Numbered from the stretch's first letter, positions 19,163 through 27,670 are shown. The stretch is DNA of 64,000 bases from Angustibacter sp. Root456 (GCF_001426435.1 NZ_LMER01000015.1:193488-257487), one strand, 5' to 3'. The notes: generated from the letters alone by a model not told the origin. Program-made: numbers and translations.

Positions 19163-19197
19163 CCAGGTAGTCCCGCAGCCGATCCAGCAGACGAGCC

Positions 19198-19230
19198 CGA
19201 CGGGGCGGCCGCAGCGCGGCCGCCCCGTCG
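19198..19230. terminator. Bidirectional hairpin between MCP and pxpC
   Basis: CGACGGGGCGGCCGC (19198-19212) and its exact complement (19216-19230) form a 15-bp stem with a 3-base loop. It abuts the minus-strand pxpC stop (19231) and lies 35 bp past the plus-strand stop at 19162. Confidence 0.8.
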
Positions 19231-20193
19231 TCACTGCAGCGCCGATCGCAGCTGCTGCTGCACCTGCCGGGCGGCCTCCCGCGCCTCGACCGCGGCGTCC
19301 AGCGACACCGGGACGAAGCGCGTCTGGGTGCCGGGCGCGCACTGCGCGACGAGGTCGAGGTCGGCGCTGATCACCGTGGCGACCATGGCGTACCCGCCTC
19401 CTGACACCGCGTCGCGGTGCAGCACGATCGGCTCGACGCCGCCGGGCACCTGGATCGAGCCGATGGGGTAGCCGGCGTCGACGATGTTCGACGGGTCGGA
19501 GCCGGCGCCGAACGGCTGCTCGCGGTCGACCCACTCCAGCTCCGGTCCGGTGTAGCGCAGGCCCATGCGGTCGGCGACCGGGCTGACGGCCCAGGTCGAG
19601 TCGAGGAAGCGGTCGAGCCCGGCCGCCGTCAGCCGGTAGTCGTACAGCCCGAGCGCCACTCGCACGTCCACCTCGCGCGACAGGGCGGGGCGCAGGTGAT
19701 CGGGGACGACGCGGCCGGGCGTGCCCCCTGCACCGTGCGCCAGGACGTCCCCGGCCTGCAGCGCGCGGCCCTGGAAACCGCCGAAGCCTCCGACGGCGTA
19801 GGTCGACCGGCTGCCCAGCACGGCGGGGACGTCGATCCCGCCGCCGACCGCCAGGTAGATCCGCGCTCCCTGCTGCAGGTACCCGAACGTCAGCTCGTCC
19901 CCGGTCGCGACCGCCAGCGACTCCCACTGGGGCACGACGTCGCCGTTCAGCCGGGCCTCCATCGCCGCGCCCGTCACCGCGATGACGGCCGGCTCGGTGA
20001 ACCTCAGCTGCGGGCCGAGGTACGCGGCCTCGATCACCGGGGCGTCCGGGCCGTTGCCCACCAACAGGTTCGCCGCGAGCGCCGACTGCAGGTCGAGGGC
20101 ACCCGACGGCGGGATGCCCACGTCGTAGTAGCCGGGCCGCCCGCGGTCCTGCACGCTGCAGCCGAGTCCCGGCGAGATGACCTCAATGGACAT
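19231..20193 (-). CDS. pxpC: 5-oxoprolinase subunit PxpC (KipA/AHS2 family)
   Basis: A 320-residue protein. SPGLGCSVQDRGRPGYYDVGIPPSGALD is the canonical start of the KipA/AHS2 carboxyltransferase-like domain, with YLAVGGGIDVPAVLGSRSTYAVGGFGG and a late GGYAMVATVISADL. With PxpB it forms the transferase-like part of an ATP-dependent lactam hydrolase (5-oxoproline to glutamate in known cases). Its start overlaps pxpB by 11 bp. It is the last gene of the cluster, with a hairpin directly behind. Because biotin genes are interleaved upstream, the reaction may involve a carboxylated intermediate. Confidence 0.93.
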   Translation of the reverse strand: MSIEVISPGLGCSVQDRGRPGYYDVGIPPSGALDLQSALAANLLVGNGPDAPVIEAAYLGPQLRFTEPAVIAVTGAAMEARLNGDVVPQWESLAVATGDELTFGYLQQGARIYLAVGGGIDVPAVLGSRSTYAVGGFGGFQGRALQAGDVLAHGAGGTPGRVVPDHLRPALSREVDVRVALGLYDYRLTAAGLDRFLDSTWAVSPVADRMGLRYTGPELEWVDREQPFGAGSDPSNIVDAGYPIGSIQVPGGVEPIVLHRDAVSGGGYAMVATVISADLDLVAQCAPGTQTRFVPVSLDAAVEAREAARQVQQQLRSALQ

Positions 20194-21076
20194 TCAGTGC
20201 CTCCAGGAGACCTGCGTTGTAGCGGTCGGGGTCGGCGAGGAAGTCCTCCAGGGTGAACTTCACGGGCGCCGTCCGGAACCGGTAGGTGCCGGCCTCGACC
20301 TCCGCCTGGATGCCGCGGTACTCGGCCTCGTCGATGGGACGGAACTTCACGATGTCCCCAGGGCGGAAGAACACCATGAAGTCCGCGAAGTCGGGCAGCC
20401 GCTGCTCGGGGTCGAAGATCGGCGCCGGGGTGAGACCGAACATCTGGTAGCCGCCCGCCCCGCGCACCGAGTAGATGCACGAGAAGCAGCCGCCGTAGCC
20501 GACGGTCAGGGCCGGTGTGTCGGTGCGCGGCCGGATGTACTTCGGCACCTGGAGCTGCCGCTCCTGCTCGACCATCTGGAACATGAACGGCAGTCCGGCG
20601 ACGAACCCCACCATGGACGTGATCCACGGCAAGCCGGAGTGCGCCTCGATGAACGCCTCCACCGAGTCCAGCCCGTTGGCGATCGCCGCGAACTCCAGGT
20701 CGTTGCCCTCCGGCCGCTGGTGACGGTCGCGGAAGCGGGCTCCGGTCTCGTTCGTGTACGGGTCGTCGTACCAGACCGGCACCTCGATGATGCGCGTGTC
20801 GAGCCCCAGCCGTGGCGCCTCGGTGACGCCGACCTCGATGCGCCGGACGACGGCCTCGAGCTGACGGGGATGGATCACGTCGGGGTCGAAGCGGATCAGC
20901 AAGGACGCGTTGCCCGGACAGATGTCGACCACGCCGTCGAGGCCTTCGTCGGCGAGGGCCTTGCTCATCGCCATGGCGGTGAAGTTGGCCTCCAGGCTCA
21001 TCGCCTCGGCGATCTGCACCACGAGGTGCTCGTCGCCACCCCAGGAGTAGCGGGGGTTCGCCACGGCGGCGCTCAC
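20183..21076 (-). CDS. pxpB: 5-oxoprolinase subunit PxpB (KipI/AHS1 family)
   Basis: A 297-residue protein from GTG 21076, which follows GAGGAGG at eight bases and overlaps the accC stop (GTGA). The AHS1 features are clear: DICPGNASLLIRFDP, EVPVWYDD, GFVAGLPFMF, YGGCFSCIYSVRGAGGYQMFGLTPAPI and FFRPGDIVKF. About 60 residues longer than the usual KipI, with extra sequence at the N-terminus and around PYTNETGARFRDRHQRPEGND. It works as a complex with PxpC. Confidence 0.92.
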   Translation of the reverse strand: MSAAVANPRYSWGGDEHLVVQIAEAMSLEANFTAMAMSKALADEGLDGVVDICPGNASLLIRFDPDVIHPRQLEAVVRRIEVGVTEAPRLGLDTRIIEVPVWYDDPYTNETGARFRDRHQRPEGNDLEFAAIANGLDSVEAFIEAHSGLPWITSMVGFVAGLPFMFQMVEQERQLQVPKYIRPRTDTPALTVGYGGCFSCIYSVRGAGGYQMFGLTPAPIFDPEQRLPDFADFMVFFRPGDIVKFRPIDEAEYRGIQAEVEAGTYRFRTAPVKFTLEDFLADPDRYNAGLLEALNVH

Positions 21077-22428
21077 ACCGCCACCTCCTCTCGCGCCATC
21101 CACTCCTCCAGGAACCGGGTGTGGTGGTCGCTGCTGCGGAACTCGGGCAGGTCGACGACGTCGCGCAGGAAGCCGACGGTGGTGGCCACGCCCTCCACCT
21201 CCACCTCGGCGAGCGCGCGGCGCAGCCGGGAGATCGCTTCGTCGCGCGTCGCCCCCCACACGATCACCTTGGCGAGCAGCGAGTCGTAGAACGGCGGCAC
21301 CTGACCGCCCTCCTCGTACCCCGAGTCGACGCGGACGAAGGGGCCGCCGGGGAGGCGAAAGCGCGTGAGCGGTCCCGGGCTGGGCATGAACCCCGTCGCG
21401 GGGTCCTCGGCGTTCAGCCGCACCTCGATGGCGTGCCCGCGCGGTGGGTGCTGGTCCTGGAACCGTGACAGCGCCTGCCCACGAGCGACCAGCAGCTGCT
21501 CCTGCACGAGGTCGAAACCCCACACCATCTCGGTGACGGGGTGCTCCACCTGGATGCGGGTGTTCATCTCGATGAACGCGAAGTCCTTCCGCTCGGCGTC
21601 GTAGAGGAACTCCACCGTGCCCGCGCCGCGGTACGACACCGCGCTCGCCAGCCGCACCGCGGCATCCGTCATGGCGCGTTCGACGTCGGCGGGCAGGCCG
21701 AGGTCGCCGGCTTCCTCGACGACCTTCTGCCGGCGGCGCTGCATCGAGCAGTCGCGTGTGCCCATGTGGATCACGTCGGTGCCGTCGCCGAACACCTGCA
21801 CCTCGATGTGCCGGGCCCGGGGGACGAAGCGCTCGAGGTACACCTCGGCGCTGCCGAACGCCGCCCGCGCCTCGGCCTGCGCCACGGGCAGCTGGGAGCG
21901 CAGCTCGTCGTCGGAGCCCACGACGCGGATGCCTCGGCCACCGCCGCCCGCCGCGGCCTTGATGGCCACCGGGTAACCGACGTCGGCCGCCACGCGCTGG
22001 GCGGCCGCGAGGTCCACCACCGCACCGTCCGACCCGGCGATCGTCGGGACGCCGGCCTGCTGGGCGCTGGCCCGAGCACGTGCCTTGTCGCCCATGAGCC
22101 GGATCGCCTCGGGCGAGGGACCGACCCAGGTCATCCCCGCACCGATGACGCGCTCGGCGAAGTCGGCGTTCTCCGACAGGAAGCCGTACCCGGGGTGCAC
22201 GGCGTCGGCACCGCACCCCTTCGCCGCCGCGACGACGGCGTCGACGTCGAGGTAGCTCTGGCCGGCGGGTGCGGGGCCGACCACCACGTGCTCGTCGGCG
22301 TAGCGCACGTGCACCGCGTCGACGTCCGCCTCGCTGCACACCGCGACCGTGGAGATACCGAGCTCGCGCGCCGCCCTGGCGACGCGCACGGCGATCTCAC
22401 CGCGGTTGGCGATGAAGAGCTTTCGCAT
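21073..22428 (-). CDS. Biotin carboxylase (AccC-type)
   Basis: A 451-residue protein. KLFIANRGEIAVRVARAARELGI, DAVHPGYGFLSENADFAE, the glycine loop KAAAGGGGRGI, FIEMNTRIQVEHPVTEMV and RLNAEDP are the full set of ATP-grasp biotin carboxylase motifs. It carboxylates the biotin on the neighbouring 81-residue carrier. No acyl-CoA carboxyltransferase (AccA/D or AccD5-like) gene is nearby; its partners are the Pxp genes on both sides. The housekeeping acyl-CoA carboxylase is expected elsewhere, so this is probably a dedicated pathway enzyme. Confidence 0.93.
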   Translation of the reverse strand: MRKLFIANRGEIAVRVARAARELGISTVAVCSEADVDAVHVRYADEHVVVGPAPAGQSYLDVDAVVAAAKGCGADAVHPGYGFLSENADFAERVIGAGMTWVGPSPEAIRLMGDKARARASAQQAGVPTIAGSDGAVVDLAAAQRVAADVGYPVAIKAAAGGGGRGIRVVGSDDELRSQLPVAQAEARAAFGSAEVYLERFVPRARHIEVQVFGDGTDVIHMGTRDCSMQRRRQKVVEEAGDLGLPADVERAMTDAAVRLASAVSYRGAGTVEFLYDAERKDFAFIEMNTRIQVEHPVTEMVWGFDLVQEQLLVARGQALSRFQDQHPPRGHAIEVRLNAEDPATGFMPSPGPLTRFRLPGGPFVRVDSGYEEGGQVPPFYDSLLAKVIVWGATRDEAISRLRRALAEVEVEGVATTVGFLRDVVDLPEFRSSDHHTRFLEEWMAREEVAV

Positions 22429-22673
22429 CAGGCGACCTCGATGGTGGCGACCGGCTCGCCCGGCGACAGCACCTGCTCGGCCTCGACCACGAACGACACG
22501 AGTGTTCCGTCGGCCCCGGCCTTCACCTCGGCGAACTGCTTCATCACCTCGACCAGGCCGATCGTCTGGTCCGCCGTCACCTGCTCACCCGGCTCGACGT
22601 ACGGGTCGGCGTCGGGTGAGGGCCTGCGGTAGAAGACCCCGGGGAGCGGAGAGTGGACGACGTGCTCAGCCAT
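22428..22673 (-). CDS. Short biotin carboxyl carrier protein
   Basis: An 81-residue protein that is only the biotinyl domain. VHSPLPGVFYRRPSPDADPYVEPGEQV leads to the biotinylation loop VEVMKQF, where the Lys of EVMK accepts biotin. It lacks the Pro/Ala-rich N-terminal extension of typical AccB. The start overlaps pxpA by 8 bp, and the stop shares one base with the biotin carboxylase start (TGATG). It shuttles carboxyl groups for that enzyme. Confidence 0.93.
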   Translation of the reverse strand: MAEHVVHSPLPGVFYRRPSPDADPYVEPGEQVTADQTIGLVEVMKQFAEVKAGADGTLVSFVVEAEQVLSPGEPVATIEVA

Positions 22674-23427
22674 GCTGACTTCCCTTCTCGGTGACGTCCG
22701 TGTCGGCGGACTCGATGACGTCGCGCACCGCCGCCGCCACCGCGACGGCGGTGGCGGTGTCGGAGTGGACGCAGATGCTCGTGAAGCTCACCGGGATGCG
22801 TTCGCCGGTGTCGGCCTCGGCGACGCCCTCCCGCAGCGCCCGCACGGCCCGCTGGGCCGCGAGCTCCGGCGCCGTCGCGTGCGGTCGGCGAGCGATGATG
22901 AGGCTGCCGTCGGCGCGGTAGCCCAGGTCGACGTAGAACTCGGCGACGAACGGCACGTCGCGCCGCTGCGCGACCCGCTCGTGCGCCGTCCCCGTCATGC
23001 CGTACACCGGGACGCCGTAGTGGACGGCGACGTCGCACAGCGCGTCCATCAGCTCTTCGTCGCGAGCGACCATGCCGTAGAGCGAGCCGTGCGGCTTGAT
23101 GTGGTCGAGCGGCACTCCCTCGATGTCGCAGAACGCCTTCAGTGCACCGACCTGGTAGAGCACGAGGTCGCGCACCTCCTCGGGGAACAGCTTCATCTCG
23201 CGCCGCCCGAAGCCCACGGCGTCCGGCAGGCCGGGGTGCGCCCCCACCGTCACACCTGCGGCCGCAGCCTTGGCGACGGTCTCGTGGATACCCACCGGAT
23301 CGCCGGCGTGGAATCCGCACGCGATGTTCGCGGTGTCGATGTGGGGCAGCAGGGCGTCGTCGTTGCCGAACGAGTGGATCCCGAAGGACTCCCCCATGTC
23401 GGAGTTGATCGTGACCTTCACCGTCAT
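22666..23427 (-). CDS. pxpA: 5-oxoprolinase subunit PxpA (LamB/YcsF family)
   Basis: A 253-residue protein from ATG 23427 (GAGGGTGAG upstream). VTINSDMGESFG, NIACGFHAGDPVGI, GVTVGAHPGLPDAVGFGRREM, IKPHGSLYGM and FVAEFYVDLGYRADGSLI are diagnostic of the YcsF/PxpA barrel. It forms with PxpB and PxpC an ATP-dependent amide-ring-opening enzyme, known for 5-oxoproline. The end overlaps the biotin carrier gene by 8 bp. Confidence 0.94.
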   Translation of the reverse strand: MTVKVTINSDMGESFGIHSFGNDDALLPHIDTANIACGFHAGDPVGIHETVAKAAAAGVTVGAHPGLPDAVGFGRREMKLFPEEVRDLVLYQVGALKAFCDIEGVPLDHIKPHGSLYGMVARDEELMDALCDVAVHYGVPVYGMTGTAHERVAQRRDVPFVAEFYVDLGYRADGSLIIARRPHATAPELAAQRAVRALREGVAEADTGERIPVSFTSICVHSDTATAVAVAAAVRDVIESADTDVTEKGSQHG

Positions 23428-23456: not shown

Positions 23457-23810
23457 TCACTCGGTTCGTTGTGTCGCAACGCCTCTCGCGCTGACGTGCC
23501 GGGCGGCGTCCAACACCGCGAGCACCACCGGGGAGCGGCTCGCGTCACCCGGGTCGGCCAGGTGGGCCTCGTCGATCGGCCGGACGGCCACGAGCCGGCG
23601 CCACACGTCGGTCACCGTGTCGGCGAGCGCGGCGGCTCCGGTGCCCGAGCGCACCACCCACGGGCCGCTGCCGACGTCGACGCGAGCCGGGTGGCCGGCG
23701 CGCCGCAGCACGTCGTTGACCGTGCGCGTCGCCTCCCACCGGGCCCGGCGCGTGGCCAGCACACCGGACCACGGGTCGGTCGCCACCTTCCTGCTGCAGG
23801 CCCCGCACAT
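23457..23810 (-). CDS. Small conserved-looking protein, unknown function
   Basis: A 117-residue protein starting at ATG 23810, with AAGGGGGAT upstream and 12 bp after the SDR stop. It begins MCGACSRKVATDPW, a single CxxC, then reads as alpha-helical with VNDVLRRAGHPARVDVG and a Trp-rich middle. No membrane segment or recognised domain is seen. Third-position G+C and its fit between two operon genes argue that it is real. Function is unknown; a role in the lactam/imide cluster is possible only by position. Confidence 0.65.
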   Translation of the reverse strand: MCGACSRKVATDPWSGVLATRRARWEATRTVNDVLRRAGHPARVDVGSGPWVVRSGTGAAALADTVTDVWRRLVAVRPIDEAHLADPGDASRSPVVLAVLDAARHVSARGVATQRTE

Positions 23811-23822
23811 GGTGGATCCCCC

Positions 23823-24563
23823 TTACGGCATCACGTCGCCGGAGTTCGGGCCGAGCGTCTGCCCGACGTACAGGTCGCCGCCCGGTGAGCTGGCCAGCAG
23901 CACCGCCGTGGGTGCCACCTCGGCCGGCGTGCCGAACCGCCCGAGCGGCAGCTCGGCCCGCTTGGCCTGCTTCCAGTCCTCGGAGATGCCGTCGACGAGT
24001 GGCGTCTCGATGGGTCCGGGGGCGATCGCGTTGACCAGGACGCCGTCGCGCGCCACCTCCAGCGCCAGGGACTTGGTGAGGCCGATGACGCCGGCCTTGG
24101 CGGCGCTGTAGTGCGTCAGCGACGTGCCACCCTTGAGCGCGAGCTGCGAGGCGATGTTGATGACCCGCCCGAACCCGCGGGCCACCATGCCGGGCACGAC
24201 GTGGCGGCACAGGAGGAACACGCCGGTGAGGTCGACGTCGATCGTCTGCTGCCACTGGGCCAGCGACATCTCGACCAGCGGCGACTGCGTGAGGATGCCC
24301 GCGGAGTTCACGAGGACGTCGATGCGGCCCAGCTGCTCTTCCGCCTCGGCCACCGCGCGCACCACCGCCTGCTCGTCGGTGACGTCGGCCGCGACCGCTC
24401 CGCGCGCGCCCAGGGCCTCGGCTGCCTCCTGGCTCACCGCTGGATCGCGGTCGAGCACCACGACCTGCGCGCCGCTGTCGACGAACGCCGCCGCGATCGC
24501 CCGCCCGATACCGCTGGCCCCTCCGGTGACCAGTGCGGTCTGCCCGCTCAGGACGCCGCTCAT
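23823..24563 (-). CDS. SDR-family NAD(P)-dependent oxidoreductase
   Basis: A 246-residue classical SDR. The nucleotide motif is TGGASGIG, with Asp in VVVLDRD after strand 2 (favours NAD). NSAGI and catalytic Ser/Tyr/Lys in INIASQLALKGGTSLTHYSAAKAG follow. ATG 24563 overlaps the stop of the upstream SDR (ATGA). It probably oxidises or reduces a hydroxyl/keto group of a pathway intermediate; the substrate is unknown. Confidence 0.92.
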   Translation of the reverse strand: MSGVLSGQTALVTGGASGIGRAIAAAFVDSGAQVVVLDRDPAVSQEAAEALGARGAVAADVTDEQAVVRAVAEAEEQLGRIDVLVNSAGILTQSPLVEMSLAQWQQTIDVDLTGVFLLCRHVVPGMVARGFGRVINIASQLALKGGTSLTHYSAAKAGVIGLTKSLALEVARDGVLVNAIAPGPIETPLVDGISEDWKQAKRAELPLGRFGTPAEVAPTAVLLASSPGGDLYVGQTLGPNSGDVMP

Positions 24564-25336
24564 GCGCGCATCTTCACGATGAGGCCGCCGTCGACGACGA
24601 GCTCCTGGCCCGTGACGTACCGCGAGTCGTTCGAGGTGAGGAACCAGATGACGTCGGCGACCTCCTCGGGGCGTCCCACGCGACCCCACGGGATGTCGTC
24701 GCCGGCCCGCTCGAGACCCTCGGGCCCCAAGGAGTTGACCGGGTCGGACGACTGCGGCGTCTCGATGAGGCCCGGGATCACGGCGTTGACGCGGATGCCG
24801 CGCGGAGCCAGCTCGACGGCCAGGCTGCGGCAGATGCCGAGCACACCGGCCTTGGCGGCCGCGTAGTGCGCGTGGTCCTCCCAGCCGTACACGCCACCGG
24901 CGATCGACGACACAGCGACCATCGCACCGCCCTCCCCGAGGTACGGCGAGCACGACCGGAAGGTACGCAGCACGCCGGTGAGGTCGACCGAGAGCATGTC
25001 GTCCCAAGCGTCGTCCGTGAGCTCGGCGAGGGGGGCCCGGCGCAGGATGCCGGCGTTGGCGACGACCTTGTCGATGCGTCCGAACGTCTCGTGGGCCCGG
25101 CGGGCGAGCTCGTCGACCTGCCCGGCGTCGCGGACGTCGACGTCGACCACCAGGCCGGTACCGCCCTCGGCCTCGACCTGGCGCAGCGTCTCGTGCGGGT
25201 CGTGCGGGTCGCCGGGGTAGCTGCCGATGACGACGTTGACGCGCTCGCGCGCGTACCGCACGGCGAGCGCCCGACCGATGCCGCTCGCGGCGCCCGTGAT
25301 GACGGCGACCTGCTGGCCGCTGGTGCTGCCTGGCAT
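24560..25336 (-). CDS. SDR-family NAD(P)-dependent oxidoreductase
   Basis: A 258-residue classical SDR from ATG 25336 (AAGGG eight bases upstream; GTG 25345 would add three residues). TGAASGIG, NAGI and VSSIAGGVYGWEDHAHYAAAKAG hold the cofactor and catalytic residues. After strand 2 it reads VVIGSYPGDPHDPHE, with no Asp at the NAD-selecting site, so it may prefer NADP. It is paired with the following SDR gene; the two share the fold but differ in the cofactor loop. Confidence 0.9.
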   Translation of the reverse strand: MPGSTSGQQVAVITGAASGIGRALAVRYARERVNVVIGSYPGDPHDPHETLRQVEAEGGTGLVVDVDVRDAGQVDELARRAHETFGRIDKVVANAGILRRAPLAELTDDAWDDMLSVDLTGVLRTFRSCSPYLGEGGAMVAVSSIAGGVYGWEDHAHYAAAKAGVLGICRSLAVELAPRGIRVNAVIPGLIETPQSSDPVNSLGPEGLERAGDDIPWGRVGRPEEVADVIWFLTSNDSRYVTGQELVVDGGLIVKMRA

Positions 25337-25362
25337 GTGATGCACCCTTCGTGGGGGTCGTG

Positions 25363-25418: not shown

Positions 25419-26783
25419 TCAGTGCTCGAGCTGCGGCACCGACTTGGCGAACAGCATCAGGACGCCGGACAGGAAGGTGCCGAGCGCCCCGACCCAGAGC
25501 GCGGCCGGGCCCGTGCCCCACGCCGCCGCAACGGCCGTGAAGAGAAAACCACCCAGGATCGTGCCGGGCTGGCTCATGGCGCCGATGATCACGGTGCCGG
25601 TACCGCGGCAGTCGGTCGGGTAGCACTCACCCATGTAGAACATGATCGCGGCGTACGGGCCGACCAGGAAGAACAGCCCGATGGCGTAGGTGGCGACGAT
25701 GAGCGCCGCGGTGTCGACGACCGGCGAGAGCATGGCCGCGAAGGCCACTCCCGAGATCATCCAGCCGATGACGATGGTCTTCTTGCGGCCGATGCGGTCG
25801 CCGAGCCAGCCGTGGAAGACGTAGCCGAAGTACGCGCCCAGGTTGATGACGATCAGCATCCAGAACGCCGTGCTGAGCTCGACGCCCTTGGCGTTGGCCA
25901 GCACCGAGCTGCCCAGGACGCTGAAGATGTTGATACCGAAGAAGTTGATGATCCACGCCAGCGACAGCACGATCGTGTTGCGGCGCAGCTCGGGCTGCAT
26001 GATGCGCGCGATCGGCGCGCTCTCGGTGTGCTCGACACCGTACTCCGCGGCCAGGCGCTCGGCCTCGGCGGACTTGCCCTCCTTCTTCAGCCGCGTCAGG
26101 CGCTGGTGCAGCTCGAACTGCGGCGTCTCACGCAGCTTCTTGCTGATCACGATGATGAGCACCACCGCTGGCAGCGTCGCGACGAGGTACATCGCGCGCC
26201 AGCCCAGGCGGTCGAGCAGCACGAGTGCGAGGGCGCTCGACAGCAGGAAGCCCAGCGGCCAGCCGCCCTGCACGATGCCGTACCAGAAGCCGCGACGCTC
26301 GCGCTTCTTCTCGTCCTCGGTGATCGCGAAGACCTCGTTGAGGTAGGTCGCGTTCACCGACTGCTCGGAGAACCCGAGGCCGCCGAGCGAGCGGACGGCG
26401 ACGATCGCGGTGTTGCTGACGGCACCGAGCCGCGCGGGGATGATCGCGGTCAGCACCGACGCGACCGCAGTGCCGCCGATCGTCAGCATCATGCCGCGGC
26501 GGCGGCCGAGCCGGTCGATCACCGGGCCGACGCCGAACGCGACGATCGCCGTGCCGACGGCGATGAGGGTGTTGACCAGGTAGGCGGTCGACTCCGACCA
26601 GCCGAAGTCGTCCTGCATCGCCGGCAGCAGTGTGCCGAACAGGCCGTAGTCGAAGACGGCCACGGTCCAGGCGAGCAGCGCCAGCACCATGGCGGTGTTG
26701 GTCTGCTTGCGCGTGAAGTGGGGGAAGCGCGCCCGCTGGCGGGCGGACTCCTCCCCCTCGAGAGGCGTGGCGAGGTCACTCAT
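25419..26783 (-). CDS. MFS transporter (12 TM, carboxylate/sugar-type)
   Basis: A 454-residue protein. ATG 26783 overlaps the stop of the CE4 gene (ATGA). About 12 helices; loop 2-3 has [15 protein letters not shown], loop 8-9 [13 protein letters not shown], and the middle loop carries a charged stretch near [22 protein letters not shown]. The layout resembles the metabolite:H+ symporters that import organic acids rather than drug exporters. It is the likely entry route for the substrate of this cluster. Confidence 0.88.
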
Positions 26784-27670
26784 GCGCTGTCTCCGTTGCG
26801 GGGGTGGCGGGCGGCGAAGTCGTCCGCGATCTGGTCGAAGGTGGCCCACCGGACACCCTCGTGCTGGTTGATGTGCTCGATCAGGCGCTCGAGCATCAGG
26901 AGAACCTGCGGACGCCCCGAGACGTCCGGGTGGATCGTGAAGGTGACGACGCCGTAGTCCATCTCGCGGTAGACCCAGTCGAACTGGTCGCGCCACATCT
27001 CCTCGAGCTGGCGAGGGTTGACGAAGCCGTGGCTGTTGGGACTGGACTTGATGAACATCATCGGCGGCAGGTCGTCGAGGTACCAGTTCGCCGGGATCTC
27101 GATGAGGTCGGTCTCCTCACCACGCACCAGCGGCTTCATCCAGTCGTCGGCCGAGGCGGAGTAGTCGATCTTCGTCCAGCTGTCTCCGACCCGGACGCGG
27201 TACGGCGTGAAGTCCCTGTGCATCAACGAGTGGTCGTACTTGATGCCACGCTCGAGCAGCAGCTCGTTCGTGACGTTGGAGAACTCCCACCAGGGCGCCA
27301 CGTAGCCGGTCGGGCGGCGTCCGGTGACGTTCTGGATGAGGTCGATGCAGCGGTCGAGCACCGCCGTCTCCTGCTCACGGCTCATCGCGATGGGGTTCTC
27401 GTGGCTGTAGCCGTGCACCCCGATCTCGTGCCCGGCGTCGACGATCTGCTGGAACTGCTGGGGGAACGTCTCGATGGAGTGCCCCGGCACGAACCACGTG
27501 CTCGGCAGGTCGTACTTCTTGAACAGGTTCAGCAGACGGGGGGTCCCCACCTCACCGGCGAACATCCCTCGCGAGATGTCGTCGGGTGAGTCCTCACCGC
27601 CGTAGGAACCCAACCATCCGGCGACCGCGTCAACGTCGACGCCGAACGCACAGAGAATTTCCTTCGGCAA
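26780..27670 (-). CDS. CE4 polysaccharide-deacetylase-family hydrolase, cyclic-imidase-like
   Basis: A 296-residue cytoplasmic protein with no signal peptide. The start is TTG 27670 with GAGGAG about seven bases upstream. Metal-binding motifs are [10 protein letters not shown] (Asp) and [14 protein letters not shown] (His-x3-His); [24 protein letters not shown] and [12 protein letters not shown] follow. The lack of secretion and the [18 protein letters not shown] block resemble the HpPgdA-like subgroup, which from memory includes bacterial cyclic imide hydrolases of about 293 residues. A ring-opening amidohydrolase fits the amidase and Pxp neighbours better than cell-wall deacetylation. The substrate is inferred. 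Confidence 0.85.

Follow-up and report, generated by a model that had tools for sequence, protein, structure and literature searches.

A five-gene block for a proposed biotin-dependent lactam carboxylase

In the present study, we analyzed a 64,000-nucleotide stretch of the Angustibacter sp. Root456 genome (NZ_LMER01000015.1:193488-257487), hereafter the window, and focused on five overlapping minus-strand genes that encode homologues of PxpA, PxpB and PxpC together with a biotin carboxyl carrier protein (BCCP) and a biotin carboxylase (BC). The results indicated that the five proteins probably constitute an unfused biotin enzyme of the urea carboxylase type and its ring-opening partner; the enzyme would N-carboxylate a lactam or another cyclic amide. 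A first-pass annotation of the same DNA had suggested a variant that depends on biotin and hydrolyzes a lactam or amide only after carboxylation of its nitrogen. This suggestion agreed with everything that was tested and is supported here, the catalysis and the complex being the parts that we infer.

According to the Pfam matches, the genes were arranged in the order LamB_YcsF (285 bits), Biotin_lipoyl (51 bits), the N, ATP and C domains of biotin carboxylase (148, 220 and 138 bits), CT_C_D (138 bits) and CT_A_B (290 bits). The pxpA-like gene (22666-23427, PF03746) encodes a predicted ring-opening hydrolase of the LamB/YcsF family, which scored 262.6 against a cut-off of 226 for the NCBI PxpA subfamily NF003814; the ATG at 23427 was the better start codon, as had been proposed. 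The BCCP (22428-22673, PF00364) has 81 residues and a VEVMK motif with Lys45, and scored 109.9 for NF005457 (cut-off 87). In the BC (21073-22428; PF00289, PF02786 and PF02785), every catalytic motif checked was intact, and the protein matched the Pseudomonas aeruginosa biotin carboxylase 2c00 with an E value of 6e-142. The PxpB-like carboxyltransferase (CT) subunit (B; 20183-21076, PF02682) starts with GTG at 21076, comprises subdomains C and D and contains the motif VPKYIRPRT. The PxpC-like CT subunit (C; 19231-20193, PF02626) comprises subdomains A and B and contains the loop AG-x-x-PSN-x-x-D-x-x-Y. Both the gene order, with its 81-residue EVMK carrier, and the overlap of all junctions had been described in the first-pass annotation and were confirmed; read from the DNA, the overlaps were 8 nt (pxpA/BCCP), 1 nt (BCCP/BC, TGATG), 4 nt (BC/pxpB, GTGA) and 11 nt (pxpB/pxpC). 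The range it had given (20183-23427) stopped at pxpB, so that pxpC fell just outside.

The B and C subunits are related to urea carboxylase

Previous work has shown that Lys1605 of the Kluyveromyces lactis CT is essential and most likely serves as the general base (PMC5770610). In the window, the Lys of VPKYIRPRT in B aligned with K1605. The profile scores pointed in the same direction. B scored 102 bits with urea_carbox (TIGR02712) versus 83.9 with the PxpB equivalog TIGR00370, under its cut-off of 145.55, and C scored 254 bits with TIGR02712 versus 199.1 with the PxpC equivalog NF045499, under its cut-off of 500. The BC scored 527 bits with TIGR02712; these are scores of separate proteins, and none reached the single-polypeptide cut-off of 1303.85. 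All four domains of urea carboxylase (BC, BCCP, CT A/B and CT C/D) were present as separate proteins. The closest solved structures of C were those of the K. lactis urea carboxylase/amidolyase (3va7/5i8i), both by sequence and by predicted fold (TM 0.87), and B was closest to the same enzyme by profile and fold (5i8i, TM 0.69, from a lower-confidence model).

To place these residues in a wider context, the K1605 position was surveyed in 193 B/C pairs. Lys was found in all five urea carboxylases and in 95 of the 105 unfused loci with BCCP and BC, and the Lys-type related loci numbered 99 in total. Arg occupied this position in 62/64 biotin-free loci and in all 11 fused-type loci. The B positions N1561, Y1606, T1613 and Y1637 (Trp in biotin-free loci) were split in the same way, and so was the C loop A1312 G1313 x x P1316 S1317 N1318 x x D1321 x x Y1324, which was mostly absent from biotin-free C proteins.

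In a B/C tree of 107 rows, from which the Lys column had been left out, one clade (34 rows, SH-aLRT 99) united all window-type pairs with the urea carboxylases and two deltaproteobacterial loci whose genes are unfused. Within this clade, the window type and the urea carboxylase type were two well-supported sides, the window type being the sister group of urea carboxylase. A 41-row tree required one change for Lys and four for biotin association, and a single origin of biotin association was rejected (AU test, 41 rows, LG+G4, p-AU 3e-59). At the sequence level, the ancestry of B and C is therefore of the urea carboxylase type. The earlier description of a PxpB/PxpC-type pair combined with biotin stood in part: active-site features of urea carboxylase that are missing in biotin-free PxpB/C were present, but the pair is not classical PxpB/PxpC, as it falls in a clade sister to urea carboxylase and scored below the NCBI cut-offs. 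The two deltaproteobacterial loci (L076 and L077, from metagenome-assembled genomes) had unfused, urea-carboxylase-like B and C beside PxpA, BCCP and BC, and took an intermediate position on the tree, with true urea carboxylase on one side and the window type on the other.

The PxpA pocket has changed together with the carboxyltransferase

The residue corresponding to the Asn of KPHG-x-LYN (Escherichia coli N113) was Asn or His in 88/88 Arg-type PxpA proteins and in 0/98 Lys-type proteins; in the window it was Gly. In addition, the invariant Arg (E. coli R165) was replaced by Leu in the window PxpA. The hydrolase has thus co-diverged with the CT, which speaks against 5-oxoproline as the substrate.

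Taken with the gene content, these features suggest the following reaction. The BC would carboxylate biotin on the 81-residue carrier, spending ATP and bicarbonate. The carrier would then hand carboxybiotin to B and C, where the conserved Lys (K1605 equivalent) would help to place the carboxyl group onto the nitrogen of the lactam or cyclic amide. PxpA would hydrolyze the activated N-carboxy-lactam ring, and the resulting carbamate would shed CO2 to yield an amino acid. Overall, the system would do for lactams what urea carboxylase and allophanate hydrolase together do for urea.

Biotin enzymes in the rest of the genome

Two other biotin carboxylases were found in the genome, each with its own biotinyl domain: a 623-aa reading frame on contig C1, where an acyl-CoA-type CT gene lies about 3 kb away, and a 1225-aa reading frame on contig C16. 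The genome search found four acyl-CoA-type CT genes (PF01039), on contigs C1, C12 and C14, and none on contig C15, to which the window belongs; the absence of an acyl-CoA carboxyltransferase from the block, remarked on earlier, was thereby borne out. Given two other BCs, one of them near such a CT, the BC and BCCP of the block are not needed to explain acyl-CoA carboxylation. PxpA and CT_C_D were represented by one gene each in the genome, both in the block. As the CT_C_D gene is single, the genome has no second PxpB and no urea carboxylase. One match to biotin ligase was found in the genome, and the scanned neighborhood in the window contained no amidase-type allophanate hydrolase.

The block is widespread

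Using the window PxpC as a query across species genomes, we obtained 77 loci, almost all of which had A, BCCP, BC, B and C together. The clear exceptions were one locus with only A, B and C (L052) and loci truncated at contig ends. The block recurred in Actinomycetota and Pseudomonadota, and the same five genes were present on plasmid or chromid records of Rhizobium, Agrobacterium, Ruegeria, Diaphorobacter, Shinella, Acidiphilium, Azospirillum, Phyllobacterium, Thioclava, Sulfitobacter, Ensifer and Aestuarium. Order and strand were identical in 82 of the 95 Lys-type loci that had all parts. Because a PxpC query is biased to window-like loci, genomes were also sampled with the presence of PxpA as the sole criterion (149 Actinomycetota and 199 Pseudomonadota). 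In these samples, BCCP and BC lay within ~6.5 kb in 27 of 90 PxpB/C loci, compared with a chance expectation of ~1.3% per locus (binomial p ~4e-29, a rough estimate). These results demonstrated that the gene association is not due to chance. A plasmid of the haloarchaeon Natrialba magadii (L117) carried PxpB/C, BCCP, PxpA and BC across ~10 kb, with cytochrome oxidase genes between them.

Genes beside related copies point to possible substrates

In Ruegeria and Aestuarium (Rhodobacterales), the block adjoined genes for 4-aminobutyrate (GABA) transaminase (gabT) and succinate-semialdehyde dehydrogenase (gabD). In Rhizobium CIAT894, an ABC transporter came after the block, together with succinate-semialdehyde dehydrogenase, carbonic anhydrase and bioB, and bioB was also near the Acidiphilium block; its occurrence at 2/16 such loci was above expectation (p ~0.001, rough). 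The GABA genes, carbonic anhydrase and bioB beside these copies suggest a route there from 2-pyrrolidinone through GABA to succinate, with a supply of bicarbonate and biotin close by. 2-Pyrrolidinone, the lactam of GABA, is the most likely substrate that the gene neighborhoods indicate for some Rhodobacterales copies; the substrate in Angustibacter is perhaps another cyclic amide. Of the 92 window-type loci, 22 had NCS1-type permeases nearby. The class-III aminotransferases close to L076, L077 and L143 were discounted as evidence for GABA, as they were only generic GabT matches.

Alternative explanations

An ordinary ATP-dependent PxpABC 5-oxoprolinase, whose BCCP and BC are operon passengers or serve an acyl-CoA carboxylase encoded elsewhere, would fit the PxpA score above the NCBI subfamily cut-off and the acetyl-CoA carboxylase names that such BCCP and BC carry in annotation. 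We consider it improbable, as B and C scored below the PxpB and PxpC equivalog cut-offs, the A-BCCP-BC-B-C order is maintained across phyla, contig C1 has a BC/BCCP protein of its own close to an acyl-CoA carboxyltransferase, and the pocket residues of PxpA differ. The differing pocket also bears on a second possibility, in which the chemistry proposed here acts on 5-oxoproline. Such a biotin-dependent 5-oxoprolinase would agree with the family membership of PxpA and with the biotin modules present in Arg-type PxpABC lineages that have a canonical PxpA pocket, but the Gly at the position where all Arg-type proteins have Asn or His, the change of the invariant Arg165 to Leu, and neighbors that indicate GABA or N-heterocycles, not glutamate, make it equally improbable. 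The urea-carboxylase-type CT with its catalytic Lys would suit a urea, guanidine or linear-amide carboxylase in which PxpA replaces allophanate hydrolase. This is very unlikely: the partner belongs to the LamB/YcsF lactamase family versus the AtzF amidase beside true urea carboxylases, and for transport the block has NCS1 permeases and sugar-type ABC systems nearby, where urea carboxylase loci have the Urt urea transporters.

Several observations weigh against the lactam N-carboxylase that we prefer. Two loci (L052 and L258) have Lys-type B/C with PxpA and neither BCCP nor BC nearby. Relocation of the missing genes was considered, and neither genome yielded a close window-type copy of BCCP or BC elsewhere; these loci may borrow another biotin module or use none. 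The AlphaFold confidence was low around the active-site segment of B (residues 180-216). GABA genes occurred near few copies only, and the window's own neighbors name no substrate.

Comparison with known systems

Urea carboxylase/amidolyase (K. lactis KlUC/KlUA and bacterial Uca; TIGR02712) resembles the block in its four functional parts, catalytic Lys and signature loop, and forms its sister clade. It differs in being one polypeptide where the block has four genes, and in having allophanate hydrolase in place of PxpA; the substrate of the block is also probably cyclic. PxpABC (E. coli YbgJKL, Bacillus subtilis YcsF-KipI-KipA and Corynebacterium glutamicum PxpABC) shares the PxpA family, the B/C fold and the predicted ATP-dependent ring opening. 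In contrast to the block, the E. coli operon and the sampled biotin-free loci have no biotin genes, their B has Arg instead of Lys, their C is without the loop, and their PxpA retains Asn/His. Aspergillus nidulans has a urea-carboxylase-like biotin protein, LamA, and a PxpA homologue, LamB, and requires both for the conversion of 2-pyrrolidinone to GABA. LamA/LamB is probably the nearest precedent; LamA is fused and fungal. The ycsF gene has been related to lamB, a 2-pyrrolidinone gene (PMC3412718).

A further comparison is provided by PDB 9yx5 (2025), in which the long-chain acyl-CoA carboxylase complex of Mycobacterium smegmatis, which includes AccA3, is bound by MSMEG_0435-0436, homologues of PxpB/C. 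Here, a PxpB/C homologue is physically attached to a BC complex, but its B is of the Arg type and the complex is a housekeeping acyl-CoA carboxylase. In the openly licensed literature that was searched, we found no report of a biotin-dependent PxpABC and no paper describing 9yx5.

Biotin modules in Arg-type PxpABC lineages

Biotin modules were also found in three Arg-type lineages: a Lactobacillus/Coriobacteria-like type, a fused type from Pseudomonadota, and a type in Rhizobium that has a pyridoxal phosphate (PLP) aminotransferase. The sequences indicate that each of these lineages acquired its module independently, and as the three are separate, the notion of one system comprising every PxpABC with biotin genes was rejected. 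The first-pass account is corrected in this respect: rather than unique, the arrangement is widespread, and at least three further lineages of Arg-type PxpABC were separately joined by biotin modules. The Lactobacillus/Coriobacteria-like loci (L118, L124, L129, L132 and L134) contained pxpB, pxpC, BCCP, BC, a putative hydro-lyase and pxpA (a partial set in L129), and in one such locus an NRAMP metal transporter came next after pxpA. The fused-type loci (L199-L203, L205, L207, L210, L211, L215, L216 and L126) were from Pseudomonadota and one Actinomycetota, had Arg at the K1605 position, and mostly consisted of a PxpB::PxpC fusion beside a BC::BCCP fusion and PxpA.

In the classical 5-oxoprolinase, PxpB/C are merely assumed to phosphorylate the substrate (PMC13274462). 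The three Arg-type lineages with biotin modules and the 9yx5 complex suggest that PxpB/C may be linked to biotin more generally. The strong form of this idea, in which PxpB/PxpC of all kinds, Arg-type included, are biotin-dependent carboxyltransferases, and the housekeeping acyl-CoA carboxylase supplies carboxybiotin to operons that lack biotin genes of their own, is speculative and rather unlikely. If true, it would account for the repeated acquisition of biotin modules by Arg-type PxpABC, the 9yx5 complex, L052 and L258 without biotin genes, and the unsolved use of ATP by PxpABC. The single Lys/Arg position, avidin and bicarbonate dependence would offer simple handles on the use of ATP in the PxpABC family.

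If the lactam N-carboxylase proposed for the window is correct, a common block now annotated as 5-oxoprolinase plus parts of acetyl-CoA carboxylase would represent a distinct class of biotin enzyme, a lactam N-carboxylase with a ring-opening hydrolase. Many annotations would be corrected, and the urea carboxylase branch of biotin enzymes would gain a new class of substrate. Bacteria would then possess a defined ATP- and bicarbonate-driven opening of stable lactams, such as 2-pyrrolidinone, the monomer of polyamide 4.

Neighboring genes in the window

A GC-rich, strong hairpin (19190-19231, minus strand) begins at the stop codon of pxpC (-39.6 kcal/mol, z -4.1, 0/200 shuffles equally stable) and likely marks the end of the transcript. 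Upstream of the block, all on the minus strand, lie two short-chain dehydrogenases (SDRs; 23823-25345), which are retained with the block in relatives, a major facilitator superfamily (MFS) transporter (25419-26921), which probably imports the substrate, and a hydrolase of the polysaccharide deacetylase family (26780-27670), which is linked with the block in 20 other loci. The hydrolase matched the Helicobacter pylori "peptidoglycan deacetylase" 3qbu/4ly4 with 550 bits; as its kin accompany a lactam-type operon in those 20 loci, the name deacetylase may be wrong. An asparaginase gene, likewise on the minus strand, is also located upstream. The interval from the second SDR to pxpA holds a 117-aa reading frame (23457-23810) that belonged to no Pfam family and was clearly conserved only in L006 and L008.

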